A stretch of 64,000 nt of DNA from Chloroflexota bacterium. Its GTDB lineage: Bacteria > Chloroflexota > Anaerolineae > Anaerolineales > Villigracilaceae. Positions 9,822-59,053 of this stretch are shown piece after piece. The position numbers were made by a program, and so were the translations under genes. Each line of letters starts with the position of its first letter. Within the stretch, counting starts at the first letter, position 1. The notes beneath the pieces are model-generated. The model was not told the origin of the DNA. It saw only the letters and a program-made list of their open reading frames with translations, and searched no databases. Location of the stretch: contig JAJYLQ010000008.1 of NCBI GenBank assembly GCA_021787595.1, positions 62,001 through 126,000 on the forward strand, written 5' to 3'.

Positions 9822-9845
9822 ATGAAGAACTACTGCCGCATCAAG

Positions 9846-9851
9846 TAAAAT
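9846..9851 (+). promoter_or_regulatory. -10 box (TAAAAT) of the gene at 9859
   Basis: TAAAAT lies 7 bases before the ATG at 9859, so transcription would begin at or next to the start codon. No clear -35 box is visible. Confidence 0.4.
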
Positions 9852-9858
9852 AGTAACG

Positions 9859-11556: not shown

Positions 11557-11567
11557 TATAAATGGAC

Positions 11568-11599
11568 AAACGGAGATGAAGGAAAGTCTCCGTTTATCT
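11568..11599 (+). terminator. Rho-independent terminator
   Basis: AAACGGAGA (11568-11576), a ten-base loop, then TCTCCGTTT (11587-11595) and further T residues form a nine-pair stem with a U-rich tail. It closes the transcription unit of the membrane protein at 9859 and separates it from cmk. Confidence 0.85.
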
Positions 11600-11623
11600 T
11601 TGTAATACCGGCGGATTCATTTC

Positions 11624-12304
11624 ATGGCAAAACCCAAACCCAACATCATCGCAATTGACGGGCCGGCGGCATCGGGCAAATCCACGCTTGGACGGCGGCT
11701 GGCCGATTCTCTCGGTTATTTGTTTTTCGACACCGGCGTGATGTACCGCGCCGTTACTTTATTGACGCTTCAACGCGGAATCGATATCCGGGACGAGGCG
11801 GCGGTCACCGCTTTGGCCGAAGCGACAACGATTGACGTTTTGCCCGCGTCCAAATCCGATGGACGCGCGTACGATGTGATTGTCGAAGGCAGGGATATTA
11901 CGTGGGAGATTCGCCGTCCCAAAGTGGATGCAAATGTTTCGATTGTTTCGGCTTATCGTGGTGTTCGCCGCGCCATGAGCGGGCAGCAGCGGCGCATCGG
12001 CCAGCGCGGAAAAGTCGTGATGGTGGGGCGCGACATCGGCACAGTCGTTTTGCCCGAAGCGGATTTGAAGATCTATCTCGATGCGTCCGCGGAGGAACGC
12101 GCGCACCGCCGCCACGATGAGATCGAAGCGCGCGGCGAAACGGCAAATTATGATGACGTTCTGACGAAGGTGATCGAGCGCGACCGGATCGATTCGACGC
12201 GCGATGTCGCGCCGCTCAAAGTCGCGGCCGATGCGGTGGTCATCGATTCGGATCGCTTGAATGCCGACGAGGTTTTCGAACGCGCCAGGAAGTTATGTGA
12301 ATAA
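11624..12304 (+). CDS. cmk: cytidylate kinase
   Basis: Cytidylate kinase phosphorylates CMP and dCMP with ATP, feeding CTP and dCTP pools. The 226-residue length is typical. The P-loop GPAASGKST is at residues about 13-21, followed by the CMP-binding region DTGVMYRAVTLL, the VMVGRDIGTVVLPEADLKIYLDAS segment near 130-150 and the LID region with RRHDEIEARGE. All expected landmarks are present and no damage is seen. It follows a terminator, so it should have its own promoter, possibly TGTAAT at 11601-11606. The acyltransferase downstream starts inside its last codons, a pairing (cmk-plsC) found in many bacteria. Confidence 0.95.
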   Translation: MAKPKPNIIAIDGPAASGKSTLGRRLADSLGYLFFDTGVMYRAVTLLTLQRGIDIRDEAAVTALAEATTIDVLPASKSDGRAYDVIVEGRDITWEIRRPKVDANVSIVSAYRGVRRAMSGQQRRIGQRGKVVMVGRDIGTVVLPEADLKIYLDASAEERAHRRHDEIEARGETANYDDVLTKVIERDRIDSTRDVAPLKVAADAVVIDSDRLNADEVFERARKLCE

Positions 12305-12992
12305 GCAGGCATATCATCCCTCCGTGCTTCTGAAATTACAGCGCCGGATGCTGAACACGGCGGCGCGTTTGATATTTCTGCTGGGCGGGCGGGTCAAAAT
12401 CAGCGGGCTTGAAAATATTCCGCGCGGCCAGGTTTACGTTGTCGCGGCCAATCACATTTCGATTTTCGATCCGCCGCTGATCCTGTCATTTTGGCCCGAA
12501 AGTTTGGAAGCCATTGGCGCCACGGATATGTTCAATCGTCCGGGCTTTGGTCAATTGTTGAGAATGTTCGGGGCGGTTCCAGTTCATCGCGGCGAATATG
12601 ACCGCGAATTGCTTGAGACGATTCTGGCAATGCTGCGTTCGGATCATCGGCTGTTGATCGCGCCCGAAGGCGGGCGTTCGCACGCGGTCGCCATGCGGCG
12701 CGCCAAGCCGGGCATCGCTTACATTCTCGACGAAGCCCGCGTGCCGGTCATACCAGTGGGTATCGTTGGCACGACCGACGATCTGCTGGAAAAAGGTCTG
12801 CGCTTCGAGCGCCCGACGGTCGAAATCCGCATCGGGAAACCGATTCGCCTGCCGCCAATCGAAGGCCGGGGCGAAGAGCGGCGCGAGGTGCGCCAGCGCG
12901 GCGCGGACCGGATCATGAGTCACATTGCCGGGCTTCTTCCGCCGGAATACCGCGGCGTTTACGCGGATTCCGCGATTTTTCCAATTCAGTAA
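12297..12992 (+). CDS. 1-acyl-glycerol-3-phosphate acyltransferase (PlsC family)
   Basis: A lysophospholipid acyltransferase of about 231 residues that would acylate lysophosphatidate in phospholipid synthesis at the membrane. The catalytic NHISIFD (HX4D) motif is near residue 52, the substrate-binding segment FGAVPVHRGEYD near 90-101 and the EGGRSH motif (EGxR block) near 121. I chose the GTG at 12297, which overlaps the cmk stop by eight bases; the ATG at 12261 would add twelve residues read in another frame of cmk and shows no family similarity. It is co-transcribed with cmk. The last 60 residues are variable in this family. Confidence 0.88.
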   Translation: MNKQAYHPSVLLKLQRRMLNTAARLIFLLGGRVKISGLENIPRGQVYVVAANHISIFDPPLILSFWPESLEAIGATDMFNRPGFGQLLRMFGAVPVHRGEYDRELLETILAMLRSDHRLLIAPEGGRSHAVAMRRAKPGIAYILDEARVPVIPVGIVGTTDDLLEKGLRFERPTVEIRIGKPIRLPPIEGRGEERREVRQRGADRIMSHIAGLLPPEYRGVYADSAIFPIQ

Positions 12993-13403
12993 ACGATTTA
13001 GTATTACCGCGCAAGGTCGAGCAATCGTTCCCTGCCAATTCTCCCTCACCCTAATCGCCTTCGGCGTGCTTCGCGACCTCTCCCAAAGGGAGAGGAGACT
13101 CCCTTCCCCATTCGGGGGAAGGGTTGGGGATGAGGGCGAAAACGGTAGAAAAGCCATGAGCAGAACCCTCAATGCTCTAACTTTGCGCTGTAATGTTAGT
13201 CTCCCCGTTTTTACGGAAGGACCTTCCTAACTCGGACAAGCTGGAACTAAAAAGGATTTAACCACGAAGGCACACAAAGGAAAACCGTTTCAAACCTTCG
13301 TGTTTGAGCGCTTTCCTGCCAAACATGGGAGAACCACAATTTGAATATCCGGCTTTCCATCTTGTAAAGTCGTTGTCGTTTAAGTGCTTCCGATAGGTTG
13401 GGC
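12993..13403. other. intergenic region with dispersed repeats
   Basis: About 410 bases between plsC and a histidine kinase. No convincing gene is present. It holds the nested palindrome at 13041-13137, a GGAAGGACCTTCC dyad at about 13214-13226, a copy of the ACCACGAAGGCACACAAAGG-type repeat at 13261-13280, and the -10 box of the next gene at its right end. Confidence 0.7.
13041..13137 (+). repeat. nested palindromic repeat (CCCTCACCC family)
   Basis: CCCTCACCC at 13043-13051 pairs with GGGGATGAGGG at 13126-13136; inside are two smaller hairpins, TCTCCC/GGGAGA and CCCTTCCCC/GGGGAAGGG. A shorter member of the same family lies in frame inside the amidohydrolase gene at 30697-30746. Confidence 0.75.
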
Positions 13404-13409
13404 TATAAT
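13404..13409 (+). promoter_or_regulatory. -10 box (TATAAT) of the sensor kinase gene
   Basis: A perfect TATAAT ends 12 bases before the ATG at 13422, so the 5' leader would be only a few bases long. No good -35 match is seen at the usual distance. Confidence 0.55.
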
Positions 13410-13421
13410 CGAAGAGCGATC

Positions 13422-16400
13422 ATGAGTTTCATCTTTACTCTTTTGGCGGGATTTCCCTACCCCATTCTGCCAACGCTGGCGGGATGGCTGGTTTGGCTTC
13501 TCCTGCTGAGCCTGGTCATTTTTTTGTTGTACCGCGGGCGTCGAAGCCAATCGGCGTGGAAAGCCCGCGAATGGGGAATTTTTGTTATCTTGCTGATCGC
13601 CGTTCCATTTGCCAGTTTATTCATTGGGATTCAACTGCCAGCCGGTTCGGCTTTGCCTCTGCCCAATTTTCCATCGGATCACGCGCCTGGTTCCTCGCTG
13701 ATGCTCTTTTCCGCGATCCCGTGGATGCTGGCGGGCGGCCTGCTCGGACCGCTGGGCGCAGCGCTGGTCGGCGCTCTCGCGGGACTTTTGCGCGGCGTCT
13801 GGGATACCTATAACTTTTTCACGCTCCTGGAATTTTCCCTGCTGGGCGTGTTGTTTTCGATCAGCGTTCGCCAGCGATTTCGCACGACGATTTATCAGAT
13901 TACGCGCCAGCCAGTCGTCAGCGCGTTGATTTTGATCCCGGCGCACGTCATCCTGTATGTGATCGCGGAATTTTTCAGCACGACGGCCTCCGTCCCGGCC
14001 GCGGCGCGCCTGGATTTTGCCATCAGCAACGCGGGCATTTCCGCGCTGGCGTTTAGCGGCGAAATGATCCTCGCCGGGATCGTTGCCCAATTAGCGGCAG
14101 CCGCCTTCCCGTCCGCGTGGGGAGCGAAGGAGCAATTGCAGCCGTCGCCAACGGAACAAAGTCTCGAGACGCGATTCCTTTTTGGAACCGGCTCGTTCAT
14201 CATGATCCTGCTCCTGGTTTTGTTGATCGGCGATTGGATCGTGGCCGGCAACAAAGCCAGCGACATGATCGAAAAGCGATTGAGCAGCACGGCAGAATCC
14301 GCCGCGCAGACCGTGCCGTTCTTTCTCGAAACGGGACAAAACCTGGCCGCGCAAACCGCGGCGGAACCGCGCCTTTTGCAGGCCGCCGGCCCGGAACTTT
14401 CCGCGATCCTCGGCCAGCACATGCAGGCCGCGCCGTATTTCGACCAGCTTCTTGTTTTGGATACAGCAACCGGTTCATTATTGGGCGCGTATCCGGCATC
14501 CGCGCGCCAGGGGTTTTTACTGTATCCGCAGGAAAGCACCGGGATGCAGCTGGCGGCCAGCGGGGTGCTGACTCAGATTTATTCGATCCCATCCCTGTCA
14601 CCGGATGGCTCCGCGCATGTTTCATTCATGATCGGAATCGTCGGCCCTGCCGGACACGTCCAGCGCGTGTTGATCGGGCGGACGACGCTGTTGACCAATC
14701 CGCTCACTCAGCCATTGATCAAGAGTCTTCAAAGCATCAGCGATTTGAACGGCACTGGAATGCTGCTCGACGAGAATCGCCAGATCCTCTACGCGTTCTC
14801 GAAGACCAATGTCCCGTCCGCTTATGATGGTCCCGGCGGCGACACGCCAGTCTTTTATTCGGCCACCGCGTCGGACGGCACGCGCCAACTGGTTTATTTC
14901 CGGCCGGTGGTGGCGCGTCCGTGGTCCATCGTGATGACCGTGCCCGCGCAGCAAACGCAGCAGCTTGCGCTCGACATTGCCATGCCGTTGTTCATGATGA
15001 TCATCGTGCTGGCGGTCATCGCGTTGATCTCTTTGCGATTCGGTTTGCGCGTCATCACGCGCTCGCTGCAAAATCTGGCGGTGGAAGCCAACCGCATCGC
15101 GCAGGGCAAGCTCGATCATCCGCTGCAAGTAACCGGCGTGGACGAAGTCGGACAACTGCGGCGCGCCTTCGAGCAGATGCGAATCAGTTTGGCGGCGCGG
15201 CTCGATGAATTGAATCGGCTGCTGGTGGTGAGTCAGGGCGTGGCATCCAGCCTCGAAATGCAGGACACGGTCAAGCCGGTGCTCGAGGCGGTGATGACCA
15301 GCGGAGCCAACGCGGTACGCGTCGTTTTGCTGCCCGCGATTCTTCCCGAGACGCCCATCGAATTGCCGACTCGATTCGCGGTCGGCCCGGCGAAGGATGC
15401 GTACGCGTATCTCGATGAACAAATCCTGAATATGGCGCAGCGCCAGGAGCGCATCGTTTTCCCGAATCTTTCCCGGACCCGCGAGCTGACCTTCGACCCG
15501 AAGCGTCCGCAGCCTGGAGCTTTGCTGGCGGTCGCCCTGCGTCACGAGAATCGTTATTACGGCGCGGTGTGGGCCGCGTACGAACAGGCGCGTAATTTCT
15601 CCGAATCGGATGTGCGCTTTGTGACGACGCTGGCTGGTCAGGCCGCGCTGGCGGTTGCCAACGCGCGCCTGTATTTGAACGTGGAAGTGGCGCGCCGCCA
15701 ATTGGAGGCGATCCTCGATTCGACTCCCGACCCGGTGCTGGTCATTGACCAGCATAACCGCGTCCTGCTGGCAAACCCCGCCGCAGGGCAGTCCCTCGAT
15801 ATTGACGTTTATAAAGCAGGCGGACAATCCATTGAAAAAATTGTCCATCAGAAACCGTTGCTCGATTTATTGCAGGCATCCGGCGAAAAGAAATCGGTCG
15901 AAGTAATATTGCCGGATAAACGGACTTATCTTGCCACGGCGTCGTCGGTGATCGCCGAGGGACATCTCTTTGGAAGAGTCTGCATCTTGCGCGACGTGAC
16001 CAGCTTCAAAGAACTCGACACGATGAAATCCGAGTTCGTCGCCACGGTCAGCCATGATTTGCGCTCGCCGCTGACGCTGATGCGCGGTTACGCCACGATG
16101 CTCGAAATGGTCGGCGAATTGAACGAGCAGCAGCAAAGCTACGTGAAGAAGATCGTGACCGGCGTCGAGAACATGACGCGGCTGGTCAACACGCTGCTCG
16201 ATCTGGGGCGCATCGAACTGGGCGTCGGCCTGCAGGTCGAAAATGTGTCGGTGCTGGATATTTTGGAACGCGTGACCAGCGCGCTGCAATTGCAGGCCAG
16301 CCAGAAGAATATCGTTTTCGATCTTGAGATTCCCAAAGACATGCCGCACGCCATTGAGGCGGATCAGGCTTTATTGCATCAGGCGATTTATAATCTTGTC

Positions 16401-48615: not shown

Positions 48616-49263
48616 ATGCTGCGTCGCATCCATGCCGAAATGCTGCGAAGCGCGGTCGGTTCGGAGTTCGGCCCGCGCGCGCTCGATGCGATCATCGCTT
48701 CCAATCTTGGACAGGACGATTTTTTGACGGGCCAGATCGGCCACGAGGAATATCATTTCGACAACAATGCTTTTGAAAAATCCCGCGCCTTCCTCGAAGA
48801 CCAGCGCGCCTTGATCGCGCCCGCTTTGGAAAACGGCGATGTCGAAACGGCATGGCGTGCTTTTGGAAAGTTGACGCACACCGCGCAGGATTTTTATTCC
48901 CACAGCAATTACGTGGATTTATGGCTGTCCTTCCAGCCCGATGGCTTGAAGCCGGCGCCGTCCGAGATCGAGCCGCTGGACGATGTGTTGATCGAGAGTC
49001 CGGCATTGCGTTCTGGAAGAATCTATTATCCGCTGGAGGCGCTGGCCTTCGTTCGCCCGTTGAGAAAACTGGTCATTCCATTCCTGCCGCGCGATTCGCA
49101 CGCGTGGATGAACCTGGATTCTGCCGAACGCGGGCCGCTGTTCGAGTATGCTTTGCGGGCCGCGACCAAACGGACGCGTTACGAATTCGATGCCACCACG
49201 CGAAGTTTCTCTCCCGGATTGCTGGCTTTGTTCCGCGATCTTTCATCCGACCATGCCGCGTAA
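48616..49263 (+). CDS. HET-C/VWA7-like or zinc phospholipase C-like protein
   Basis: A 215-residue soluble protein. The segment NGDVETAWRAFGKLTHTAQDFYSHSNYVDLW (about 76-106) matches the H-x-x-Q-D-F-Y-x-H-x-N-x-x-E/D/W motif shared by HET-C, VWA7 and bacterial zinc-dependent phospholipase C-like proteins, in which the His/Asp residues line a metal site. HEEYHFDNNAF near 43 gives further candidate ligands. No signal peptide is visible, unlike secreted phospholipases. It begins directly after the cyclase stop and overlaps the methyltransferase start by eleven bases. A membrane-lipid role is only inference from family. Confidence 0.7.
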   Translation: MLRRIHAEMLRSAVGSEFGPRALDAIIASNLGQDDFLTGQIGHEEYHFDNNAFEKSRAFLEDQRALIAPALENGDVETAWRAFGKLTHTAQDFYSHSNYVDLWLSFQPDGLKPAPSEIEPLDDVLIESPALRSGRIYYPLEALAFVRPLRKLVIPFLPRDSHAWMNLDSAERGPLFEYALRAATKRTRYEFDATTRSFSPGLLALFRDLSSDHAA

Positions 49264-50131
49264 AAAAACAAAAACGTCCTCGTTCGGTTCGCCTGGCCGC
49301 GCCGGGCATGACGCGTCGGCTTTTTATTCGATGCGCTTGTATGAAGACCAGCCGCAATCCGCGGATTTGGAATATCACGAAAATCCGATTCCCGCTGAAA
49401 CGCTGGACACGATCTTCAATACATCGTCCGAATCCATGCGCGAACTGCCGAATGACTCTGTGCATTTGATGGTCACATCGCCGCCGTATAACGTGGGCAA
49501 GGATTACGATGAAGATTTGTCGCTGGAGGAATATCTTGCCTTCCTGAAACGCGTCTGGGCGGGGACGTATCGCGTGCTTGTCCCCGGCGGGCGCGCTTGC
49601 ATCAACGTCGCGAATCTCGGACGCAAGCCCTACATTCCGCTCCACGCGTTCATCATGCGCGACATGATCGAACTTGGATTCCTGATGCGCGGCGAAATCA
49701 TTTGGGATAAAGGCGCTTCGGCGAGTCAATCCACCGCGTGGGGATCGTGGCAATCGGCATCGAATCCGACTCTGCGCGATACGCATGAATATATTTTGGT
49801 TTTCTCGAAAGGAAATTTTCGACGCGAGAAATTAGATGGAAGAAGCGATACAATCACCAAAGAAGAATTCCTTGAATTCACCAAATCCGTTTGGAACTTT
49901 GCGGCGGAATCCGCAAAGAAGATCGGACATCCCGCGCCGTTTCCAATTGAACTACCGTATCGCTTGATTCAACTTTATACCTTCTCAAATGAAATTATTC
50001 TCGATCCGTTCATGGGATCGGGTCAAACCGCGCTGGCGGCGTTGAAGGCTGGAAGGCATTATGTGGGTTATGAAACGAACGAAGAGTATTTGAAGTTGGC
50101 AAGAAGCCGTATAAACACATGGCGAGATTGA
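49253..50131 (+). CDS. beta-class DNA methyltransferase, complete copy
   Basis: A 292-residue DNA amino-methyltransferase. The catalytic motif IV is TSPPYN (about residues 74-79) and comes before the S-adenosylmethionine motif I DPFMGSGQT (about 250-258), the order of the beta class; the TSPPY form is common in N4-cytosine and some N6-adenine enzymes. Between them lie RVLVPGGRACINVANLG and RGEIIWDKGAS. The first 40 residues are a basic extension (MPRKKTKTSSF). No restriction endonuclease is adjacent, so it is an orphan enzyme. Its 3' half recurs as truncated copies at 52273-52728 and 55283-55387. It overlaps the HET-C-like gene and is followed by a strong terminator. Confidence 0.92.
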   Translation: MPRKKTKTSSFGSPGRAGHDASAFYSMRLYEDQPQSADLEYHENPIPAETLDTIFNTSSESMRELPNDSVHLMVTSPPYNVGKDYDEDLSLEEYLAFLKRVWAGTYRVLVPGGRACINVANLGRKPYIPLHAFIMRDMIELGFLMRGEIIWDKGASASQSTAWGSWQSASNPTLRDTHEYILVFSKGNFRREKLDGRSDTITKEEFLEFTKSVWNFAAESAKKIGHPAPFPIELPYRLIQLYTFSNEIILDPFMGSGQTALAALKAGRHYVGYETNEEYLKLARSRINTWRD

Positions 50132-50159
50132 TTATAACCATCAACCGAGTTATTCAATT

Positions 50160-50198
50160 AATTGAGTGCCATCAAAAGGTCATTGATGGCACTCAATT
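50160..50198. terminator. terminator after the complete methyltransferase
   Basis: AATTGAGTGCCATCAA (50160-50175), loop AAGGTCA, TTGATGGCACTCAATT (50183-50198): a perfect 16-pair stem. It stands between convergent genes and shares its outer arm AATTGAGT/ACTCAATT with the terminator at 52739. Confidence 0.85.
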
Positions 50199-50220
50199 TC
50201 TGTGCAATCGCAGAGCAATT

Positions 50221-50808
50221 CTATGGCAGAAATTGTCCGGTCACGAAGTTGAATTGCCCGGTGCCTCCGCCTTCAGTGCTGAAGAAAAGGATGTTGCCTT
50301 CAACCTTTGTCGCGGTCAAAGGCCCTTTTGAGGTAGTGTAATCAGTCATCGTTGACGGTGTCGTCGTACCAAGTCTATGGCTGGCACAGGGATCGGCAGA
50401 ATCTACCAAGACTCGGATCAATCCCTGATTTGGTTCATTGGTTGGCGCACCAACCCATATCGTATAGTAGTTCCCTCCAAATGCTGCAATCGCCTTGGTG
50501 GTAATGATGAATTCCCGCGCATCGAAAGGAGGTGCGCCAGTATCCGGACCTGGGGTAGCAACGTAGGTCGCTCCCGGACCCGGGAACGGACATGAGGCAG
50601 GCTTGGTTGCTGTTGGTAGGCTGAGATCAGATTTTGGGGCATGCGGTCCTGTTTCAGCAGTTGCTTGCAATTGTGTCTGCACGGCTTCGAATGTTTGTTT
50701 GGCAGGTGGTTCTACAAACGGCGTTGTGTTCGCGCGGGCAATGGTAAAGATGCTGACCATCGCCACTATTAATACCGATATGACCAAGATGGAAATCCGT
50801 TTATTCAT
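50221..50808 (-). CDS. exported protein of unknown function (module 1, small)
   Basis: A 195-residue protein with an N-terminal signal or anchor helix (MNKRISILVISVLIVAMVSIFTIA), then a Pro/Thr/Ser-rich linker (about 30-75) and a small C-terminal domain with FDAREFIITTKAIAAFGGNYYTIWVG near 99-124 and GPLTATKVEGNILFFSTEGGGTGQF near 163-187. I do not recognise the fold. A TAGGAG ribosome site precedes the ATG. It lies downstream of the larger exported protein at 50864-51895 in the same minus-strand unit. Its start MNKRISI resembles MNKRLSI of the lipoprotein at the equal position in module 2 (52801-53256). Base composition is lower in GC than flanking housekeeping genes. Confidence 0.8.
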   Translation of the reverse strand: MNKRISILVISVLIVAMVSIFTIARANTTPFVEPPAKQTFEAVQTQLQATAETGPHAPKSDLSLPTATKPASCPFPGPGATYVATPGPDTGAPPFDAREFIITTKAIAAFGGNYYTIWVGAPTNEPNQGLIRVLVDSADPCASHRLGTTTPSTMTDYTTSKGPLTATKVEGNILFFSTEGGGTGQFNFVTGQFLP

Positions 50809-50863
50809 AGTTTGCTCCTACTTTTGGTATTCGATTTTTGTAGCATCGTCAATTGATCCTTAG

Positions 50864-51895
50864 CTACTGACCTTGATATTTGATATTTGTGGCATAGTCA
50901 AGTGTGCCTTGACTACTGACCTGATTCCAAAGTTGCTGCCAAGCGTAAGTCGGGGTCCATGCCGTTGACGAGCCTGCACAATAAGTGCCAGTGATAGGAT
51001 CGGATTGGTTGCAGTCCGCCAGTACGCCTTTGTAAAACATATAGTATCCCAAATTCATCCAACTGTTCAAGTTACCCTGATTGTAAATTTCAGGTTGCGG
51101 ATACTCTGGCACGCCTGCACCATAGGCAACATAGTACACATCGCTGGCTATCCAACCTCTATCGTTGTATGCCAGGCATGCAGCTGGCACGTTGGCAGAA
51201 CCGTAGTCTATGAAGAGGGCGCTCGAAGGATCATTCGAATTGAAGCCATCTACAAAGTTCCGAGTTTTCGTTGGGCAATCCCACCATTTGCCAGTTGGAT
51301 CATTATAAGGTTGTTCCATATCATCACCACCCCAAGCGGTGATTTGCCATGAGTAACCACTATTCTTCAACCATGTTTGCACATCATTTACTACATTGCC
51401 CCATTGCTGAGCAGCGGCATAAGGAGTACACGTTCCTCCGGAACGGCATTGATCGTAGTTGTTGACACCAATGGTTATTTTAAGTTTTGGGCAAGTTCCT
51501 GTTTTGTTATACCATCCCGCCGCGTAATTTTCCGCGGCTTGCTCTACAACTCCATCCGAAACGAATGTGCCATTGTTGAAATCAGAGACCCCATACACTC
51601 CGCCTTGGTAATATACCTGACCGAAGTCCAGCATTACCGCGGCATTTGTACAGTTGGAGTTATCCCGGGTTCCATCGTTCTGACCGAGAGTGTACATCGA
51701 ACTCGAGTCGGGAAATTTAATGTACCAGGCATGCGCATACGGAGGGGGCGTGGTCTGTGCGGCAGAAACTGGTGTAGCATATTGGAATATTAAGATAAGT
51801 ACCAGGAGGGTTAGAATGCTGGTACTCACATAATATCCAAGCCTGCTAATTCGCTTCAGTGCCAGCGCAACAGGAAAAGTTGTTAGTCTTCTCAT
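50864..51895 (-). CDS. exported protein of unknown function (module 1, large)
   Basis: A 343-residue protein. A long N-terminal signal segment (RLGYYVSTSILTLLVLILIFQYATPVSA, about 20-47) is followed by a secreted domain rich in aromatic residues and Cys (NCTNAAVML, TGTCPKL, YDQCRSGGTC, WWDCPTKT, PAACLAYND, ADCNQSD), suggesting disulfides. Phrases such as LKITIGVNNYDQC, VVNDVQTWLKNSGYSWQITAWGGDDMEQPYND and PSSALFIDYGSA alternate strand and helix like a TIM barrel and might be a glycosidase-like fold, but no catalytic pair can be assigned. I chose the ATG at 51895 with an AAGGAG ribosome site; the longer frame begins in the promoter. It is the first gene after the LuxR operator-promoter and is AT-rich relative to the genome. 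Confidence 0.8.
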   Translation of the reverse strand: MRRLTTFPVALALKRISRLGYYVSTSILTLLVLILIFQYATPVSAAQTTPPPYAHAWYIKFPDSSSMYTLGQNDGTRDNSNCTNAAVMLDFGQVYYQGGVYGVSDFNNGTFVSDGVVEQAAENYAAGWYNKTGTCPKLKITIGVNNYDQCRSGGTCTPYAAAQQWGNVVNDVQTWLKNSGYSWQITAWGGDDMEQPYNDPTGKWWDCPTKTRNFVDGFNSNDPSSALFIDYGSANVPAACLAYNDRGWIASDVYYVAYGAGVPEYPQPEIYNQGNLNSWMNLGYYMFYKGVLADCNQSDPITGTYCAGSSTAWTPTYAWQQLWNQVSSQGTLDYATNIKYQGQ

Positions 51896-51938
51896 TTTGT
51901 ATTCTCCTTTTGAATAGAAATGTACAACCACTACTTTC

Positions 51939-51983
51939 ACTCTACACCTTTTGGAGTCATTTGTCACTGGAATTAATACCAGT
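51939..51983 (-). promoter_or_regulatory. LuxR-type operator and promoter of module 1
   Basis: On the minus strand the near-palindrome ACTGGTATTAATTCCAGT (51983-51966, 16 of 18 positions symmetric) overlaps a -35 box TGACAA (51966-51961); after 16 bases comes a -10 box TAGAGT (51944-51939). An activator site at the -35 edge is the usual LuxR-family position. The same layout recurs at 54157-54201. Confidence 0.65.
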
Positions 51984-51997
51984 TTTTTCCCTGGGAA

Positions 51998-52272
51998 TTA
52001 TTCGAGGTTGTCAGACAAATATCTATGCGCCCAAGCCGCGGCTTCCTGGCGCGAATGCACCTCTAGCTTCTTCAAAATATTGCTGACGTGATAGGAAACC
52101 GTCTTGGATGTTACATTCGTCGCTTGCGCTATATCTGCATTGCTTGATCCATCCGCTAATAGTTTCAATAATTCCCGTTCGCGCTCCGTTAGGCTTTCCA
52201 ACTTTTTCCCAGCAGTTTCTCGCCAGCGATGTACTCTTTCGAATTGCTCTTGCGTAAAGAGACATTCACCGT
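51998..52272 (-). pseudogene. 5'-truncated LuxR-family regulator
   Basis: The minus strand reads GECLFTQEQFERVHRWRETAGKKLESLTERERELLKLLADGSSNADIAQATNVTSKTVSYHVSNILKKLEVHSRQEAAAWAHRYLSDNLE from the junction to a stop, printed here only in parts: the block ESLTERERELLKLLADGSSN and the recognition helix region SKTVSYHVSNILKKLEVH are a complete LuxR helix-turn-helix. No signalling domain remains; upstream of about 52272 the sequence becomes the methyltransferase remnant and the regulator frame meets a stop near 52287. Only a TTG at 52201 could start the short form. It stops 15 bases before the operator at 51966-51983. It is probably a remnant, although a free HTH domain could still bind. Confidence 0.75.
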
Positions 52273-52728
52273 TTGCTGCGCGGCGAGATTATATGGGATA
52301 AAGGCGCTTCGGCTAGTCAATCCACCGCGTGGGGATCGTGGCAATCGGCATCGAACCCGACTCTGCGCGATACGCATGAATATATTTTGGTTTTCTCAAA
52401 GGGAAACTTTCGCCGCGAAAAAGTTGATGGCCGTGCTCCTACGATCTCCAAAGAAGAATTTTCGGAATTCACAAAATCCGTTTGGAACTTTGCGGCGGAA
52501 TCCGCAAAGAAGATCGGACATCCCGCGCCGTTTCCAATTGAACTACCGTATCGCTTGATTCAACTTTATACATTCTCGAACGAAATTGTGCTCGATCCAT
52601 TCATGGGATCGGGTCAAACCGCGCTGGCGGCGTTGAAGGCTGGAAGGCATTATGTGGATTATGAAACGAACGAAGAGTATTTGAAGCTGGCAGAGAAGCG
52701 TATAAGCGAAACGCGGGATCGATCGTAA
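52273..52728 (+). pseudogene. 5'-truncated copy of the DNA methyltransferase (3' half)
   Basis: The frame encodes about 151 residues equal to the C-terminal half of the methyltransferase at 49253: RGEIIWDKGASASQ to FMGSGQTALAAL and beyond. Motif IV TSPPY and everything upstream are missing, so it cannot methylate. A 98-base run (52474-52571) is identical to 49883-49980, while neighbouring stretches such as 52406-52446 differ clearly; this mosaic suggests gene conversion. The end differs slightly (ETRDRS against NTWRD). The left edge abuts the truncated LuxR gene head to head. A terminator with the same outer arm as that after the complete copy follows. Confidence 0.9.
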
Positions 52729-52738
52729 TTATAGAGTG

Positions 52739-52778
52739 AATTGAGTCCAGTCGGCGAGTAATTTGACTGGACTCAATT
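52739..52778. terminator. terminator after the methyltransferase remnant
   Basis: AATTGAGTCCAGTC (52739-52752), a 12-base loop and GACTGGACTCAATT (52765-52778) form a 14-pair stem between convergent genes. The outer arm equals that of 50160-50198, while the inner arm and loop differ. Confidence 0.85.
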
Positions 52779-52800
52779 ACTATGTGATCGCGTGAAACCT

Positions 52801-53256
52801 TTACGGTAGATCAACCTCTGTGCAAGCCACGCCGCCTGAGTGGATTACTTGGATCATCCAGTGTTTCATCTCAGGTGGGAGACTGTTCACCACTTCGACA
52901 TAACGGCCATTCGAGTCGGCAGTCAAGACGGGATGGCCTTCCATTCGTAGAATATGTCCATCGCTTTGTGCGCGGAGAATGTAGGTTAAATGTTCACCGG
53001 GTTGAAGCCCCGTGATCTCAAGTTGCACTGCTGTGGCTGACACAGGCTTAGCTGTTAGAGTCATGCCTTGGGGAATGGAGGTACAGATCACTGGCGTTGG
53101 CGAGGGATACAACTCTGGCGGCACCTCCTCCACCGTGATTGCTACCCTCGGCATAGATGTTGTAGTCTCTTGCCCGCCAATTCCAGCAGCCTGAGAATTG
53201 CAAGCGGACACCAAACACATTAGAAGCACGAATTCAATGCTGAGCCGTTTATTCAT
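52801..53256 (-). CDS. lipoprotein of unknown function (module 2, small)
   Basis: A 151-residue lipoprotein. The signal peptide MNKRLSIEFVLLMCLVSAC ends in lipobox LVSAC at about residue 19. A Thr/Pro-rich linker (about 30-55) leads to a domain with MTLTAKPVSATAVQLEITGLQPGEHLTYILRA near 65-96, which resembles an immunoglobulin or fibronectin-type strand pattern, and SLPPEMKHWMIQVIHSGGVAC near the end. Two Cys in the mature domain may pair. No family is recognised. It lies 47 bases downstream of the larger exported protein of module 2 on the same strand, at the position held in module 1 by the exported protein at 50221. Confidence 0.8.
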   Translation of the reverse strand: MNKRLSIEFVLLMCLVSACNSQAAGIGGQETTTSMPRVAITVEEVPPELYPSPTPVICTSIPQGMTLTAKPVSATAVQLEITGLQPGEHLTYILRAQSDGHILRMEGHPVLTADSNGRYVEVVNSLPPEMKHWMIQVIHSGGVACTEVDLP

Positions 53257-53303
53257 CTATACTCCAGAGGAGACTCGATTGCTAAACCTTGATAATACTG
53301 CGC

Positions 53304-54077
53304 TTACGGGTAGTAGGTGAAGGCTACCCCCATACTGCCATCATAGCTGTCATAGTAGTAACCATCAGAAGCAATGGTAGCAGTTAGAGGATATTCAACG
53401 GTTGGTTGCATTTGCGGCCAATTACCGTTAAAAATGTGATAGACACTTGTGTTGCCATTCCACGACGGAGTAAAGGGTCCATCTGCATAAATGTAACTGT
53501 AGTATGTGTCAGTAGTACACCTAAGCCAGCTCCCATCGCTACCCCAATGTGTGTATGCATTTTGAACCGTCCAGTTTGCATCGCTTCTTGTCCACCATTC
53601 CACAAGCTTATATGGTTGATATACGTCGCATAGAGAGTTGTAACAATACCTGTAATAATAATGTTTTGCATGCGATACAACACCACCCAAGCGAACATCT
53701 TCGCCATCGTCAGAGTATTGTCCCAGGTAGGTGCAGCCGCTTGCAGCAATATTTGTAGTGGTAGAGGTGTTCTTAATTGCACAACCATTACTTGAGGGTG
53801 GCACTGCGTCTTTAGGAGCCTTACGAATTGTTATAGTAATGGTGTGGATCTCGCCGGTATCGGGATCCTTGATCTGTTGGGTCTCCGTCCGAATAATGGG
53901 CCAATCCTTGTCCTCAAATACATGATTCTTTTCAACGGTCACTACCACCGTCGGACTTGGTGTAGCGCTTGGCGGATTTCCGCGTTGTGCCTTCGCTATT
54001 CTTGGAGTGAAACTTGCTGTAAACGCCAGCAACACCAAGATCGTGAAAAACTTGAACCATCTCAAATTGTGTTTCAT
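53304..54077 (-). CDS. exported protein of unknown function (module 2, large)
   Basis: A 257-residue exported protein. The signal peptide (KFFTILVLLAFTASFTPRIAKA, about 9-30) ends in an AKA cleavage site. A Pro/Thr/Ser linker with TPSPTVVVTV follows, then an acidic strand-rich stretch (DPDTGEIHTITITIRK near 72-87), then an aromatic, Tyr/Trp-rich domain with several Cys (NGCAIKN, SGCTYLG, YRYCYNSLCDVY, LRCTTDTYY). The C-terminal part is rich in Tyr/Asp (SDGYYYDSYDGS). I do not recognise it. An AAGGAG ribosome site precedes the ATG. It is the first gene behind the second operator-promoter copy. It shares position but no obvious sequence with the module 1 protein at 50864. Confidence 0.8.
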   Translation of the reverse strand: MKHNLRWFKFFTILVLLAFTASFTPRIAKAQRGNPPSATPSPTVVVTVEKNHVFEDKDWPIIRTETQQIKDPDTGEIHTITITIRKAPKDAVPPSSNGCAIKNTSTTTNIAASGCTYLGQYSDDGEDVRLGGVVSHAKHYYYRYCYNSLCDVYQPYKLVEWWTRSDANWTVQNAYTHWGSDGSWLRCTTDTYYSYIYADGPFTPSWNGNTSVYHIFNGNWPQMQPTVEYPLTATIASDGYYYDSYDGSMGVAFTYYP

Positions 54078-54150
54078 CGCAAACTCCTTTCGAGAGTTGA
54101 TGCCGTGGCTTTTCGTAGCCCCGACATCCTAAGTGAAATTTCCAATCGCC

Positions 54151-54242
54151 ACTTTCACTCTACTCCCTTCCGGATCATTTGTCACTGGAATTAATACCAG
54201 TTTTTTTCCTGGGAATTATTCGAGGTTGTTAGACAAGTATCT
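54151..54242 (-). repeat. 92-bp direct repeat: LuxR 3' end, operator and promoter, second copy
   Basis: This block matches 51933-52024 at 83 of 92 positions by hand count, without gaps. It carries the last eight LuxR codons (RYLSNNLE and stop), the spacer, the operator and the promoter. Similarity ends abruptly on the LuxR side at 54242, so only a scrap of the regulator remains here. Confidence 0.9.
54157..54201 (-). promoter_or_regulatory. LuxR-type operator and promoter of module 2
   Basis: The operator ACTGGTATTAATTCCAGT (54201-54184, minus strand) is identical to that of module 1; -35 TGACAA is at 54184-54179 and -10 TAGAGT at 54162-54157 with the same 16-base spacer. It drives the gene at 53304-54077. 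Confidence 0.65.
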
Positions 54243-54274
54243 CGTGCTCCTTAATAGCAGTCACCGAATCGATT

Positions 54275-54469
54275 TCATGGCGTCGGGGCAATTCCAAGCG
54301 GTAACAATGTTACCTTGATGTTTGTGGGTTCAAAACCATCAGCACCTTGTTGCAGAGTGAAAATAAGCATAGCCCCATACTCTCCCTGCGGTGTGACTAC
54401 TTCCATTGCCACTTGTACCTCGTCGCCTGACTTACTCCTCCCCGGCATAAAGGAGCCTCCTGGCAACAA
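54275..54469 (-). pseudogene. fragment of an exported or lipoprotein gene
   Basis: The minus strand encodes about 64 residues with SGDEVQVAMEVVTPQGEYGAMLIFTLQQGADGFEPTNIKVTLLPLG. The frame stays open upstream to near 54560 through a Gly-rich stretch (TDGQGDGGSGGIL) but no start codon with a ribosome site or signal peptide is found. It looks like the C-terminal end of a broken gene. It lies directly upstream of the LuxR scrap in the second 92-bp repeat. Confidence 0.45.
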
Positions 54470-54527
54470 AATTCCTCCGGATCCTCCGTCGCCCTGTCCA
54501 TCCGTAAGCGCTGGTGTAGAAGCACAA

Positions 54528-54655
54528 AATAGTTCTTTACTACAGCGAAGTTTTGAAGCTTGTTTTACTCAATTTTTGGAAATAAAGTTCTTTACTGGAG
54601 CCAGCCTCCGATTCCTTGAGAGGTTCAATTCAAAACAATAAAGTTCTTTACTGGA
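54528..54655 (+). repeat. spaced short direct repeats (AGTTCTTTAC)
   Basis: AGTTCTTTAC begins at 54531, 54586 and 54642, spaced 55 and 56 bases. The last two copies extend to AATAAAGTTCTTTACTGGA (54581-54599 and 54637-54655) and share a TCAATT six bases further left. The region 54470-54746 holds no clear gene. Confidence 0.6.
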
Positions 54656-54746
54656 CGTGGACGCAGGCCCAACATGTAGTTTGAAGATTATAAATTCGGG
54701 CGCTATGTCCACATTTTGCCATTACAATTTTGAGCGAGTACTATGC

Positions 54747-55262
54747 TCAGTAAACAACTTTATTGTGCCAGTACAAACTATATTGTTCTTCCACAGCTGG
54801 GTATTCCATAACCTCGTTTAGTTGAGGTACAGCGCCCCAGTAAAAATGCACAGGTCCGCTGAGGTCAGAGCCCTGGTAAACCCAGCACTTATAGATACCG
54901 AATCCATTTAAATCACTATATAGTGATGTAATATCCGGGTGTTGATTCATTGTCGGGTCCCGGAAGAGCCAGAGGAAAAACGTAAAGGGGCCATTTTGTA
55001 TAGTATCTCCGCCGATAATATTCGCTGGCGTGGGTTGCGGTGGAAGGGGCAGGGGGTTTGGAGTAGGCGTGTTGTGAGTAAGTAATGCGCCTGAAGTAGG
55101 AGAGGTGCGCGTCGTTGCGATCTGAGCAGATACGGTGGTTGTAAGGGATGGCGGCGTTATATTAACTTGACCACTACATGCGGCCAGCGAAAAGAATAAG
55201 ACACACGCGATGATCTGTTTGCATATTTGATGATTCGTCTTCAATCTCTTGCTCAGTGACAT
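54747..55262 (-). CDS. lipoprotein of unknown function
   Basis: A 171-residue lipoprotein. The signal peptide (QICKQIIACVLFFSLAAC, about 12-29) ends in lipobox LAAC. A Thr/Pro-rich linker with LPLPPQPTPANIIGG follows (about 45-82), then a compact domain with NGPFTFFLWLFRDP near 90 and LNGFGIYKCWVYQGSDLSGPVHFYWG near 118-143, one Cys. I do not recognise the domain. The ATG at 55262 has a CGGAGT ribosome site that lies within the scar joining it, head to head, to the third methyltransferase remnant. It has no copy of the LuxR operator upstream, so its promoter may have been lost or lies in the scar. Confidence 0.75.
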   Translation of the reverse strand: MSLSKRLKTNHQICKQIIACVLFFSLAACSGQVNITPPSLTTTVSAQIATTRTSPTSGALLTHNTPTPNPLPLPPQPTPANIIGGDTIQNGPFTFFLWLFRDPTMNQHPDITSLYSDLNGFGIYKCWVYQGSDLSGPVHFYWGAVPQLNEVMEYPAVEEQYSLYWHNKVVY

Positions 55263-55282
55263 TACACTCCGGTAAAAATTTG

Positions 55283-55387
55283 ATGGGCCAAATTGCGCTG
55301 GCGGCGTTGAAATCCGGACGGCATTATGTAGGATACGAAACGAATGAGGAGTATTTGAGGTTGGCGGAAAAACGAATTCACTCTTGA
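55283..55387 (+). pseudogene. third remnant of the DNA methyltransferase 3' end
   Basis: The plus strand reads MGQIALAALKSGRHYVGY, then ETNEEYLRLAEKRIHS and a stop: the last 35 codons of the methyltransferase family at 49253 (FMGSGQTALAALKAGRHYVGY). A six-base deletion removes Ser-Gly of motif I, which would destroy cofactor binding even if the rest were present. Third-position changes show it is older or from a more distant copy than the remnant at 52273. Its stop is one base from the stop of the convergent lipoprotein gene. Confidence 0.88.
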
Positions 55388-55388
55388 T

Positions 55389-56252
55389 TCACGGGTTGAC
55401 GATGATGGCGTCCGGCGATCCGATTTGCACGAGATACCAAGTCTTATCGCGCAAACCGAAGAAATCCACTCTGTTTTGCCACGCGGAAGGATTAAGTTCA
55501 GCGTAGCTGCAACAGCCATAGTGGGGGATCCGGTCGTATCCAAGTGGAATCTCTTGTTCATCATACCAGGCGTTGATTTTTTGGTCGCGCTTGAAAAAGT
55601 AAAACGGTCTGTCATTGATGGTTTGAAAGCCGAAGGCTTCTTCGTAACCATATTTGTCATTGAGCAGGACGCCGTCTTCCGTAATTTGGCCGCGAACAGG
55701 TTCATCGGCATTTCCTGAAACATAAGCGGTCTCCAGTACCCAATGATTATCGTATGTCCATAAGCGGCGCAAGGCATTGAGAGGGCTGCCGGCCCCGATT
55801 GCAATACGATAGATTTCCTGCCCGTCTTCCGTGACAATTACGTTGCCTTTAGTGCCATCGTTGTTATATTCTTCTCGTGCGACAAGTTCTTGGCCGCCAA
55901 AATTAACCTGTATGGAAAGCAGGGGAGAATAGCTGAATTCCGGAATGTCTGTAAAAGGTCTACCCGGTGGAAATACCAGGGAATTGGGCCGCGTGTACCA
56001 GAGTCCTTGAACAGTTTGAACCTGGAGCGGGTCAAGTTGAAGCGTTGGATCGCCTTTGATTTCATAGGTCGCGATGCTTAGCCCGGACGCTGGTTTTGTT
56101 GGGAATATAGCCGGTGTGATCGCGGGAGAGGGATTATGGACGATTGTTTGTGTAGGCGCAATAGTCGCGGGGAGGGCTGTCGTGGATGGGGCACAGGCAG
56201 CCAGCAAAAGAATCGGGAGGATAATCCTGAATCGGTTGAAATAATTCTTCAT
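55389..56252 (-). CDS. lipoprotein of unknown function
   Basis: A 287-residue lipoprotein. The signal peptide (MKNYFNRFRIILPILLLAAC) ends in lipobox LLAAC. An Ala/Thr/Pro linker follows (about 20-60), then a large strand-rich domain: LQLDPLQVQTVQGLWYTRPNSLVF near 75-98, REEYNNDGTKGNVIVTEDGQEIYRIAIGAG near 128-157, WTYDNHWVLETAYV near 165 and a C-terminal YGCCSYAELNPSAWQNRVDFFGLRDKTWYLVQIG. The alternating pattern suggests a beta-propeller or sandwich with a Cys pair. The ATG at 56252 is preferred over 56273 because the signal peptide then starts properly. A minus-strand -10 box TATGAT lies about 60 bases upstream. It belongs to a known kind of Chloroflexi lipoprotein only by composition. Confidence 0.8.
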   Translation of the reverse strand: MKNYFNRFRIILPILLLAACAPSTTALPATIAPTQTIVHNPSPAITPAIFPTKPASGLSIATYEIKGDPTLQLDPLQVQTVQGLWYTRPNSLVFPPGRPFTDIPEFSYSPLLSIQVNFGGQELVAREEYNNDGTKGNVIVTEDGQEIYRIAIGAGSPLNALRRLWTYDNHWVLETAYVSGNADEPVRGQITEDGVLLNDKYGYEEAFGFQTINDRPFYFFKRDQKINAWYDEQEIPLGYDRIPHYGCCSYAELNPSAWQNRVDFFGLRDKTWYLVQIGSPDAIIVNP

Positions 56253-56605: not shown

Positions 56606-59053
56606 ATGGATTCCAGGACTCTGCGTGTTCTCGAGTACGACAAGATCCTCGCCCAGCTGGCGGGCTTTTGTGATTTCTCCGCTTCGGCGAATTTGGGGCG
56701 CGCGCTCCAGCCTTCCAACCATTTTGATGAAGTGACGCGTCTGCTTGCCGAGACGACCGAAGCGCGCTATCTGCTTTCGACTCATGACCTGACCATCGGC
56801 GGCTCGCACGACATCCGCGCCTCCGCCGACCTCGCGGCGCGCGGCGGCGTGATTGACCCGCAACAAATGCTTGAGATCAAATCCACGCTGATGGCCTGCC
56901 GCGACTTAAAGAAATCTCTCGCACATTCCGCAGAAAAAACCCCTCGCCTCGCGCAGATCGCGGTTGGACTCCCTGAATCATTCGGTATCGTTGATGCGAT
57001 CACGCGCGTGCTGTCGGAACGCGGTGAAGTCTTGGATTCAGCTTCGGATAAATTAGCAAGCATTCGCCGCGAGGTGCGTGTGGCGCGTGACCGTCTGATG
57101 TCGCGTCTGCAAAAATATTTAACGGAGTCCGCTTCCAAGTTGCAGGAGCCGATCATCACCCAACGCGATGGACGCTATGTGATTCCATTGCGTGCTGAAT
57201 TCAAAAGCAGTATTAAAGCTATTGTCCACGATCAATCGTCATCCGGTGCAACATTGTTCGTTGAACCACTGCCGGTCGTCGAACTCAACAATCAAGTCCG
57301 TGAGCTTGAACTTGCCGAACGCGATGAAGAGCGAAGAATTCTTGCTGAACTCTCTGGTCTCATCGGCGCGCACGCGGTCGAACTCAAATATGGAATCGAA
57401 AATCTTGCCATCCTTGATCTTGCATTTGCAAAGGCAAAATACGCGGAAGAGATTCATGCGAGTGAACCAGTGATGCACAAGATGGATCATGGATCATGGT
57501 TAATGGATCATGGCAAAACCATTAACCATGATCCATTAACCATCATCTTGCTTCACTCCCGCCACCCACTGCTCGATCCAAATACTGTGGTGCCAATTGA
57601 TATCAATCCAAGAGAAGGAACGCGCGCCCTCGTCATCACCGGCCCGAACACCGGCGGCAAAACGGTTTCGCTCAAAACCGTCGGTTTGCTGGCGCTCATG
57701 GCTCAAAGCGGATTGCACATCCCGGCGCAAAGCGGCTCGGAACTCCCATGCTTCCATGATGTCTTCGCCGATATTGGCGACGAACAATCCATCGAGCAAT
57801 CGCTCAGCACGTTTTCATCGCACATCACCAATATCATCCACATCTTGAAGAAAGCCGATGAGCGTTGCCTTGTCATCCTCGATGAACTCGGCGCCGGCAC
57901 GGATCCGCAGGAAGGCGCGGCGCTGGCGCGCGCTATATTGAGGCATCTCATCGAACGCGGCATCACGACGTTCGTTGCGACGCATTATCCTGAACTCAAA
58001 ACGTTCGCGCATTCGACCGAAGGCGTGGTCAATGCTTCGCTTGAATTCGATGTTCAGACTCTACGCCCGACCTATCATTTGACCATCGGATTGCCGGGAC
58101 GATCCAATGCATTAGCCATCGCTCAGCGCCTCGGCCTGGACCCGCAGCTGGTCGCCGCGGCAAAGAGCGAGATCAACCCCGACGATCTGCGCGCCGACAA
58201 ACTGCTCGACGATATCCGCAAGGAACGCAATCGCACTTCGCGCGAAAGGGAAAAATTGGAGAAAGCCCGCGCCAGACTCGAAGAACAGACTCGCAGTCTC
58301 GAAAAACGATTGGACAAAATCGAGGACGAGCGCCGCGAGGTTTTAGCCAAAGCGCGCGCCGAAGGCGAACTCGAAGTCGCGGTGCTGAAACAAAACATCG
58401 AGTCACTGAAACAACAATTGAAGAAAGCGCGCCAGCCGTTACAGGCCATCAAAGAGTTGGAAGAAAAAGTCGAGGCGATTGAAGAGAAAACGCAGATGCC
58501 AATTGAAAGACAGTTGACGGTGGACGGTGGACGGTCTACGGTCTATGGTCAACCGTCTTTAAAGTTGGGCGAGCGAGTCATCGTCGCCTCGCTAAAATCA
58601 GAGGGCATCGTGACCGCTTTGAGCGAGTCCGAGGCGGAGGTTCAGATTGGCACGTTACGCGTCAGGGCGAAGTTCAATGATTTGGAGAGAAAGGCCAGTG
58701 GTCAGTCATCAGTCAGCAGCGATCAGTTATCGGTCAGCAGTGATCAGTCACGCATCACGCATCACTCGTCACTTGCTACTCGTCACACGTCGCCGGCAAC
58801 TTCCCCCGGCATGGAAATCAGCCTGCGCGGCAAATTGGTCGAAGACGGACTCGACGAGCTGGACAAATATCTGGAGAAAGCCTATTCAGCAGGGTTGCCG
58901 TTCGTCCGCATCGTGCATGGCAAAGGGACGGGCAAGATGCGCGAAGCGGTGCGATCTGCGTTGAAAGACAGCCCGTACGTCAAATCATTCGAAGAGGCGC
59001 ATGAGAGCGAGGGCGGTGCAGGTGTGACGATTGCAAAGCTCGAAAAGGGTTAG
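56606..59053 (+). CDS. mutS2: endonuclease MutS2
   Basis: An 815-residue MutS2, a MutS-family ATPase without the mismatch-reading domain, linked to suppression of recombination and to rescue of collided ribosomes in Firmicutes. The N-terminal core and clamp region (about 1-330) has RDGRYVIPLRAEFKSSIKAIVHDQSSSGATLFVEP near 187-221; Walker A is TGPNTGGKTVSLKTVG near 344, Walker B CLVILDELGAGTDPQEGAAL near 422, followed by a coiled coil (about 535-625) and the C-terminal Smr nuclease domain (about 733-815, LRGKLVEDGLDELDKYL and IVHGKGTGKMREAV). Three low-complexity inserts encoded by DNA repeats lie at about 292-312, 634-652 and 695-731. The start ATG at 56606 follows the -10 box closely; the longer frame starts inside the promoter. 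Confidence 0.93.
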   Translation: MDSRTLRVLEYDKILAQLAGFCDFSASANLGRALQPSNHFDEVTRLLAETTEARYLLSTHDLTIGGSHDIRASADLAARGGVIDPQQMLEIKSTLMACRDLKKSLAHSAEKTPRLAQIAVGLPESFGIVDAITRVLSERGEVLDSASDKLASIRREVRVARDRLMSRLQKYLTESASKLQEPIITQRDGRYVIPLRAEFKSSIKAIVHDQSSSGATLFVEPLPVVELNNQVRELELAERDEERRILAELSGLIGAHAVELKYGIENLAILDLAFAKAKYAEEIHASEPVMHKMDHGSWLMDHGKTINHDPLTIILLHSRHPLLDPNTVVPIDINPREGTRALVITGPNTGGKTVSLKTVGLLALMAQSGLHIPAQSGSELPCFHDVFADIGDEQSIEQSLSTFSSHITNIIHILKKADERCLVILDELGAGTDPQEGAALARAILRHLIERGITTFVATHYPELKTFAHSTEGVVNASLEFDVQTLRPTYHLTIGLPGRSNALAIAQRLGLDPQLVAAAKSEINPDDLRADKLLDDIRKERNRTSREREKLEKARARLEEQTRSLEKRLDKIEDERREVLAKARAEGELEVAVLKQNIESLKQQLKKARQPLQAIKELEEKVEAIEEKTQMPIERQLTVDGGRSTVYGQPSLKLGERVIVASLKSEGIVTALSESEAEVQIGTLRVRAKFNDLERKASGQSSVSSDQLSVSSDQSRITHHSSLATRHTSPATSPGMEISLRGKLVEDGLDELDKYLEKAYSAGLPFVRIVHGKGTGKMREAVRSALKDSPYVKSFEEAHESEGGAGVTIAKLEKG
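57481..57543 (+). repeat. in-frame ATGGATCATGG-type repeat in mutS2
   Basis: Repeats of ATGGATCATGG and TTAATGGATCATGG, with an inverted ACCATGATCCATTAACCAT arm, insert about 20 residues (MDHGSWLMDHG and NHDPLTI) before the ATPase core. The inverted arms could form a stem. Confidence 0.8.
58508..58558 (+). repeat. in-frame GGTGGACGGTC-type repeat in mutS2
   Basis: GTTGACGGTGGACGGTGGAC, then GGTCTACGGTCTATGGTCAA: direct and inverted copies of a GGTCNACGGT word, encoding LTVDGGRSTVYGQPS. The same family is inside the DUF2298 gene at 4423-4478. Confidence 0.8.
58690..58800 (+). repeat. in-frame CAGTNATCAGT-type repeat in mutS2
   Basis: Runs of GTCAGTCATCAGTCAGCAG and ATCAGTTATCGGTCAGCAG, then CACGCATCACGCATCACTCG, encode a Ser/Gln/His/Thr-rich linker of about 37 residues between the coiled coil and the Smr domain. 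Such CAGTTATCAGT words are abundant dispersed repeats in some bacteria. Confidence 0.8.

Follow-up and report, generated by a model that had tools for sequence, protein, structure and literature searches.

The window analysed here, a 64,000-nucleotide stretch of a Chloroflexota genome (G000:C10:62001-126000, on contig C10), contains an array in which pieces of a DNA methyltransferase gene on the plus strand alternate with minus-strand genes for unrelated exported proteins, with mutS2 at the right end (Table 1). Open reading frames (ORFs), repeats and the sequence itself confirmed this gene order, including the one complete and two 5'-truncated methyltransferase copies described in the first-pass annotation of the region. 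In this and several other species, unrelated operons for exported proteins begin with a copy of the 3' end of a response regulator (RR) gene.

Repeated ends and unlike cargo

Two modules of like order had been described, and all the expected parts are present in both, but their LuxR-type RR ends are unequal, extending over ~275 nt with a complete helix-turn-helix (HTH) domain in one module and over ~14 nt in the other. The two copies of the operator-promoter with the RR 3' end are 87% identical. The small proteins, which had been grouped by a common MNKR[IL]SI start, do share these seven residues, but no other similarity was detectable between them. Flank copies are 77-96% identical (75% over the full aligned length for the methyltransferase piece on contig C41 of the same genome), whereas no window protein matched another at E<=0.01 in a comparison of 43 distinct cargo proteins, so the initial view that the cargo differs while the flanks are alike was borne out.

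The complete methyltransferase, the only copy scanned against Pfam, matched PF01555 over profile positions 1-219 of 221, and it also gave a strong match to a type II methyltransferase model of PADLOC (PDLC03350, E=1.6e-131). Hairpins with AATTGAGT arms follow copies 1 and 2 on the 3' side. They fold strongly on either strand, and pairing of the inner arms is preserved despite sequence differences between the two.

All six intact cargo genes of the window encode a signal peptide or lipobox, as first reported (by eye), and all pass a crude hydrophobic-segment test. With this test, the first gene past the operator had an N-terminal signal or transmembrane segment at 12/12 sites, versus 7/34 window ORFs. 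None of the six proteins matched NCBIfam (E<=0.01) or PADLOC (E<=0.001), and Pfam yielded no match for five and a sub-threshold match for one (zf-NOSIP, E=0.035). The G+C content of the cargo is lower than that of its surroundings at all seven loci. The large protein of module 1 was found in only 1 of 152 genomes of the family, its own; a sequence search of the PDB gave E values of 0.18-0.2 at best for this protein and no match for the amidase-like protein of C41. No plasmid match was obtained for the large protein of module 1 and no phage match for that of module 2, and structure predictions without an alignment were poor for both (mean predicted local distance difference test scores of 36.9 and 37.4, respectively).

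Table 1. Coordinates of the array in the window and, in the last five rows, of its second part on contig C41 (locus L045)
Feature	Position	Strand	Basis or remark
Complete N6/N4-type DNA methyltransferase, copy 1, left neighbour of the slot	49253..50131	+	ORF; PF01555, E=2e-48
Terminator-like hairpin between convergent methyltransferase copy 1 and cargo	50160..50200	.	Fold z -6.4 (+), -7.8 (-)
Module 1 small exported protein, 195 aa	50221..50808	-	ORF; no match in Pfam, NCBIfam
Large exported protein of module 1, 344 codons counted from this end	50864..51898	-	ORF; no match in Pfam, NCBIfam
Module 1 operator pair, promoter-like sequence, RR 3' end	51917..52024	-	Repeat; 12-site alignment; profile hit 51938-52010
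5'-truncated RR gene, HTH domain only	51998..52285	-	GerE, E=1.2e-21; tree placement
RR::methyltransferase junction, ~8 bp shared (GCGCGGCG)	52266..52290	.	By eye
Methyltransferase 3' piece, copy 2	52273..52728	+	405/455 sites identical to copy 1, differences clustered
Terminator-like hairpin beyond methyltransferase copy 2	52735..52780	.	Fold z -6.6 (+), -7.3 (-)
Module 2 small lipoprotein, 151 aa	52801..53256	-	ORF; lipobox by eye
Module 2 large exported protein, 257 aa	53304..54077	-	ORF; no match in Pfam, NCBIfam, PADLOC
Module 2 operator pair, promoter-like sequence, few RR codons	54135..54242	-	Repeat; profile hit 54156-54228
Probable cargo-gene remnant, 64 codons, without own start	54275..54469	-	ORF; inference
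Lipoprotein, 171 aa	54747..55262	-	ORF; lipobox by eye
Methyltransferase 3' piece, copy 3	~55283..55387	+	Repeat, 77% over 102 nt
Lipoprotein, 287 aa	55389..56252	-	ORF; no upstream operator of the array type found by patterns or profile
C41 first cargo	9275-10506		First gene frameshifted, split between two frames (9840-10581)
C41 operator with RR tail	Between first cargo and methyltransferase piece		Sequence
C41 methyltransferase 3' piece	~10637-10906		Similarity to copy 1
C41 second cargo	10934-12085 and 12228-13598		12228-13598: Amidase_6, E=8.8e-8
C41 operator, then intact RR	RR 13704-14396		Next: gatB/yqeY, pgpH

Between the cargo-gene remnant and the 171-aa lipoprotein gene, a AATAAAGTTCTTTACTGGA-like sequence of ~19 bp occurs three times at 55-bp spacing (54526-54546, 54581-54601 and ~54636-54656); these copies are possible protein-binding sites or a possible element end. 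The frame of mutS2 accommodates, unbroken, palindromic or repeated short sequences of the GATCATGG type with 26-nt arms (57481-57547 and ~58640-58750), and its protein has an SVSSDQ-type repeat.

The operator pair and the response regulator tails

The intact RR on C41 is a NarL/FixJ-type response regulator, with a receiver domain (PF00072, E=3.7e-24) and a LuxR/GerE HTH domain (PF00196, E=1.3e-20). The RR fragment of the window, a 67-aa ORF, matched GerE over its full length, with no receiver family in the Pfam result, and was placed in a small tree as sister of the C41 RR (support 0.955; 63/96 residues). RR relatives at 42-57% identity were identified on contig C3 of the same genome and in the genomes G002, G005 (two), G021 (three), G022, G110 and G127. 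Same-direction genes with signal peptides (by eye) lie downstream of most of them; no sizeable cargo was seen downstream of the G002 RR. In an alignment inspected by eye, both G005 paralogues (L085 and L092) have lost the usual phospho-acceptor Asp (ILLLG and ILLFE, versus ILLLD in the C41 RR), and they may therefore act without phosphorylation.

Two CTSG-N8-CCAG elements, 23-24 bp apart, lie directly at the RR stop codon, the first overlapping the last RR codons and the second followed by TG[AT]CAAA and, ~15 nt further on, by a TAGA[AG]T-like sequence (-35/-10-like). This operator pair and promoter-like sequence are conserved across 12 aligned sites and form their best-conserved part. A strict pattern combining operator and RR tail found 12 sites in 6 of the 152 family genomes and none in reversed-pattern controls; the same 12 sites, in 6 genomes, were recovered from 400 genomes of the order. 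A hidden Markov model (HMM) of the operator detected 14 sites at E<=1e-8 (35 sequences, 519,195 bases), 12 of which had been used to build it; the two new ones (L134:8969-9043 at 7.7e-18 and L090) lie in G110, as its third site, and in G021. Below these came a weak hit at the RR of G002 (E=2.7e-4); reversed-sequence controls reached E=0.67 at best.

Looser patterns were less specific. With one mismatch and no tail requirement, 14 matches were obtained in 8/152 genomes versus 8 in the reversed controls; 11 were at RR ends, and the other three had neither an RR nor an operator by HMM. The proximal element alone proved uninformative (22 matches in 16/150 genomes versus 40 reversed-control matches), with 12 of its matches corresponding to RR-end sites and 10 lacking an operator by HMM (E>=0.015). 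A hairpin or attC function of the operator was also considered but is not favoured: the fold z values at seven sites (-0.38, -1.35, +0.38, -3.81, -6.05, -7.20 and -0.61) indicated strong single-stranded folding at three and none at four, and folding is therefore not a common property of these operators.

Half of the 14 operator sites are accompanied by an RR gene (one cut by a contig end) and half are not. The RR-less sites are the two of the window, two in G110 and one each on C41, in G005 and in G127. Measured from the distal element in the upstream direction, the remaining RR homology spans 275 nt at the first window site, 219 nt in G005 (212/219 identical, in front of unrelated cargo), 40 nt in G127, 14 nt at the second window site, 9 nt on C41 and 14 and 16 nt in G110. 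Since this homology ends 9-16 nt upstream of the distal element at four of the seven sites, the RR end appears to be better explained as an operator/promoter than as a homology arm, and the tail may have been kept because the distal element lies within it.

The chromosomal slot and arrays at other loci

In G002, G005, G009 and G011, the methyltransferase gene is directly followed by gatB/yqeY and pgpH, and the slot between them is empty. The two sides are 5.8 kb apart in G003, with other genes in between; in G004, both contigs stop at the slot and the gatB side holds other sequence, and in G033 the contig stops just past the methyltransferase. Beside gatB in G004, the nearest relative (L130, 8000-8896), a nitroreductase-like ORF and the start of a transposase-like gene at the contig end were seen by eye. 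Because the slot is empty in four relatives, the RR and its cargo probably arose in the methyltransferase-gatB/yqeY slot, now split over two contigs. The C41 part adds one more methyltransferase 3' piece and another two operator sites. In G002 and G004, mutS2 is on the gatB contig, 57 kb and 40 kb away, respectively; a simple inversion with the slot and mutS2 as end points was considered for the rearrangement and not retained, as the genes around mutS2 also differ among G002, G004, G005 and the genome studied here.

Compared with the complete methyltransferase, the adjacent piece diverges by 10.5%, the third piece, which neither an operator nor a LuxR end adjoins, by 26.9% and the C41 piece by 24.9%, values that would fit an order with the newest module next to the anchor. 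The cassette bounded by a methyltransferase end and a LuxR end, as originally proposed, recurs with other cargo on C41, but the methyltransferase gave no hit in L085, L133 or L134. The arrays of G005, G110 and G127 lie at other loci without a methyltransferase; the general flank is therefore the RR 3' end, and the methyltransferase end is the neighbour of one chromosomal slot.

The modules of G005, G110 and G127 are bounded by RR 3' ends and carry other exported cargo, and cargo families recur at different module positions and in different order between species. The gamma family was found in the tail modules of G005 and G127, downstream of the intact RR of G110 (at 76% identity to that of G127) and as the third gene of an operon in G021; the delta family follows the RR in G005 and belongs to a tail module in G110. 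The alpha and beta families follow the RR at the C3 locus and in G021 and G005, and G110 has them in a tail module, with a weak match for alpha (E=0.003). The family name DUF2690, tried for the alpha cargo, found no support in Pfam and was dropped. G110 has three modules with three cargo sets. On C3, behind the second RR of the genome, a ~630-bp repeat (L087, 1684-2323 and 5452-6083; 94-100% identical in blocks) surrounds LysM/PD40 and BNR-type exported genes.

Origin of the array and comparison with known systems

Methyltransferase copies 1 and 2 differ at 50/455 sites, and these differences are clustered, leaving a 98-bp identical run (permutation p=0.0001) within which copy 1 differs from G002, G003, G005 and G011 at 22-27 of 98 positions. 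The copies are thus mosaic, which suggests conversion between them. At the junction of the RR fragment and methyltransferase copy 2 (~52273), ~8 bp are common to both genes (by eye). The first-pass suggestion that the flanks serve as homology for swapping cargo is consistent with the mosaic methyltransferase copies, but seems not to extend to the RR end, given its better reading as an operator/promoter. Import of the methyltransferase and RR pieces from other strains as intact genes was considered on the basis of a third-position bias (12,9,26; 18,16,38; RR 17,18,45), but the polarised methyltransferase counts did not uphold it.

We consider it probable that the array consists of exported-protein modules under RR control, built by recombination, in which the RR tail persists as the operator carrier. 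Each operon would be transcribed from a promoter that the NarL-type RR probably activates, and, because the predicted paired binding site of the RR extends into the 3' end of the RR gene, the gene tail could act as a portable operator-promoter. Copies of the tail would head further operons, several of which would respond to one intact RR, in this genome the one on C41. At the slot between the methyltransferase and gatB/yqeY, recombination would have joined methyltransferase ends, cargo and RR ends. One side of each event would probably have paired by homology and the other have been joined illegitimately, as may have occurred at the ~8-bp microhomology. Each addition would have left behind the older cargo operon, accompanied by an RR tail and a methyltransferase remnant truncated at its 5' end, the modules having come from other strains or having arisen in place.

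Several observations weigh against this interpretation. The two halves of the array are on C10 and C41 with different outer neighbours (mutS2 and dnaG), so a rearrangement or misassembly must have been involved. Comparison with related genomes, as initially proposed, revealed RR-end modules with other cargo in G005, G110 and G127, but no close strain with a single-module form or a flank-bounded swap was found, and G110 and G127 belong to one genus. The operator sites were found with patterns and an HMM that contain the elements, which limits the argument from tail retention, and several elements are off consensus at one or two positions. Tails 2 and 3 of G110 share 72 nt upstream (59 matches) and are copies of each other. 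The signal test was failed by 8/43 cargo proteins, and the first RR-headed operon of G127 contains ABC-transporter-like genes. On the truncated methyltransferase branches, polarised changes fall evenly on the three codon positions (copy 2: 3,3,3; C41 piece: 4,5,7), as in decay after truncation; they thus give no support to import from another strain and do not tell the age of the methyltransferase pieces from their source. The third-position bias of the RR fragment (17,18,45) comes from unpolarised counts, which cannot decide on import. Finally, the case for RR control is built on sequence conservation.

Alternatively, the modules may have been duplicated in place long ago, with their cargo later replaced or inserted by unrelated events and the operator and terminator remaining alike through function alone. 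The even codon-position changes on the truncated methyltransferase branches and the superior conservation of operator and promoter would fit such a history, but methyltransferase copies 1 and 2 share the 98-bp identical run although no selected function of these repeats is evident, and the G005 RR tail keeps 212/219 identity in front of unrelated cargo; we therefore regard this explanation as unlikely. Plain tandem duplication of one unit with decay, to which the head-to-tail order and truncated copies could be attributed, is extremely improbable, as the contrast between flank and cargo divergence, the comparison by which the first-pass annotation had proposed to judge it, speaks against it. 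The separation of the halves, with their different outer neighbours, raises the question of whether the assembly, misled by the repeats, produced some of the architecture as a chimera; this appears improbable, because repeats of 75-92% identity are usually separated by assemblers and similar arrays are present in three other genomes.

An integron-like or other site-specific cassette array, with the inverted-repeat operator as the recombination site, would be in line with the strong folding of three of the seven operator regions as single-stranded DNA and with integrase matches over the curated cut-off in five of the six array genomes (G005, G021, G096, G110 and G127; only array-bearing genomes were counted). 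However, the matches in these five genomes do not adjoin the arrays, and none of the 10 integrase matches in the genome studied here exceeds the cut-off, the best one being a partial match at the end of contig C10 (C10:6-197), ~111 kb from the array. Moreover, four of the seven operator sites do not fold in this way and no attC core sites were seen by eye, making such a system very improbable. It is also quite improbable that the RR tail was retained as a stand-alone HTH protein regulating its module: open HTH frames of ~90 codons in the window and ~80 codons in G005 would allow this, but at five of the seven RR-less sites the RR sequence preceding the distal element is down to 9-40 nt, without an HTH domain.

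Bacteria gain and lose secreted proteins rapidly, and the capture of a new gene by an existing regulator is seldom visible in sequence. The related arrays suggest a way of putting new secreted proteins under an existing switch. If RR-controlled modules were indeed built by recombination around the RR tail, they would provide a testable route for the recruitment of horizontally acquired genes into a regulon and a sequence tag for finding such cargo, most of which has no known domain. More tentatively, the regulon may grow by tail copying, with each tail placed before new genes enlarging the exported set of the RR and the module order partly recording acquisition.

Orphan NarL/FixJ response regulators with adjacent target genes are a known kind of system. 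The RRs described here resemble them in combining a receiver with a LuxR-type HTH domain and in having same-direction exported genes directly downstream, but differ in that the operator pair overlaps the 3' end of the RR gene itself and the tail is copied as an operon head. As in integron cassettes, different cargo is separated by repeated sequence; unlike in integrons, no integrase lies beside the arrays, each module is equipped with a promoter and many hold more than one gene, and no attC was seen. We found no report of this arrangement in one open-access library, which does not prove its absence from print.

Hotspots without mobile elements, with recombination at flanking core genes, have been described (2017, PMC5635113), and the methyltransferase-gatB slot, empty in four relatives and occupied by other genes in G003, resembles them. 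It differs from the hotspots as described in that report in having a repeated regulator end and promoter inside the variable region. The closest published analogue that we found is the displacement array of type VI secretion system (T6SS) effector-immunity modules in Vibrio cholerae, in which a conserved upstream region anchors new modules while older parts stay behind; in the proposal made for it, the array grows by homology-facilitated illegitimate recombination, and duplication is argued against (Kirchberger et al. 2017, PMC5361080). Our array would likewise have received new cargo at a conserved anchor, with older modules pushed along and partial genes left. However, relative to the T6SS arrays (PMC5361080), the repeat here is an RR 3' end with an operator-promoter, locally together with a methyltransferase end, the cargo consists of exported proteins, with no effector or immunity match for the six of the window in NCBIfam or PADLOC, and the piece retained is a probable promoter rather than an immunity gene.

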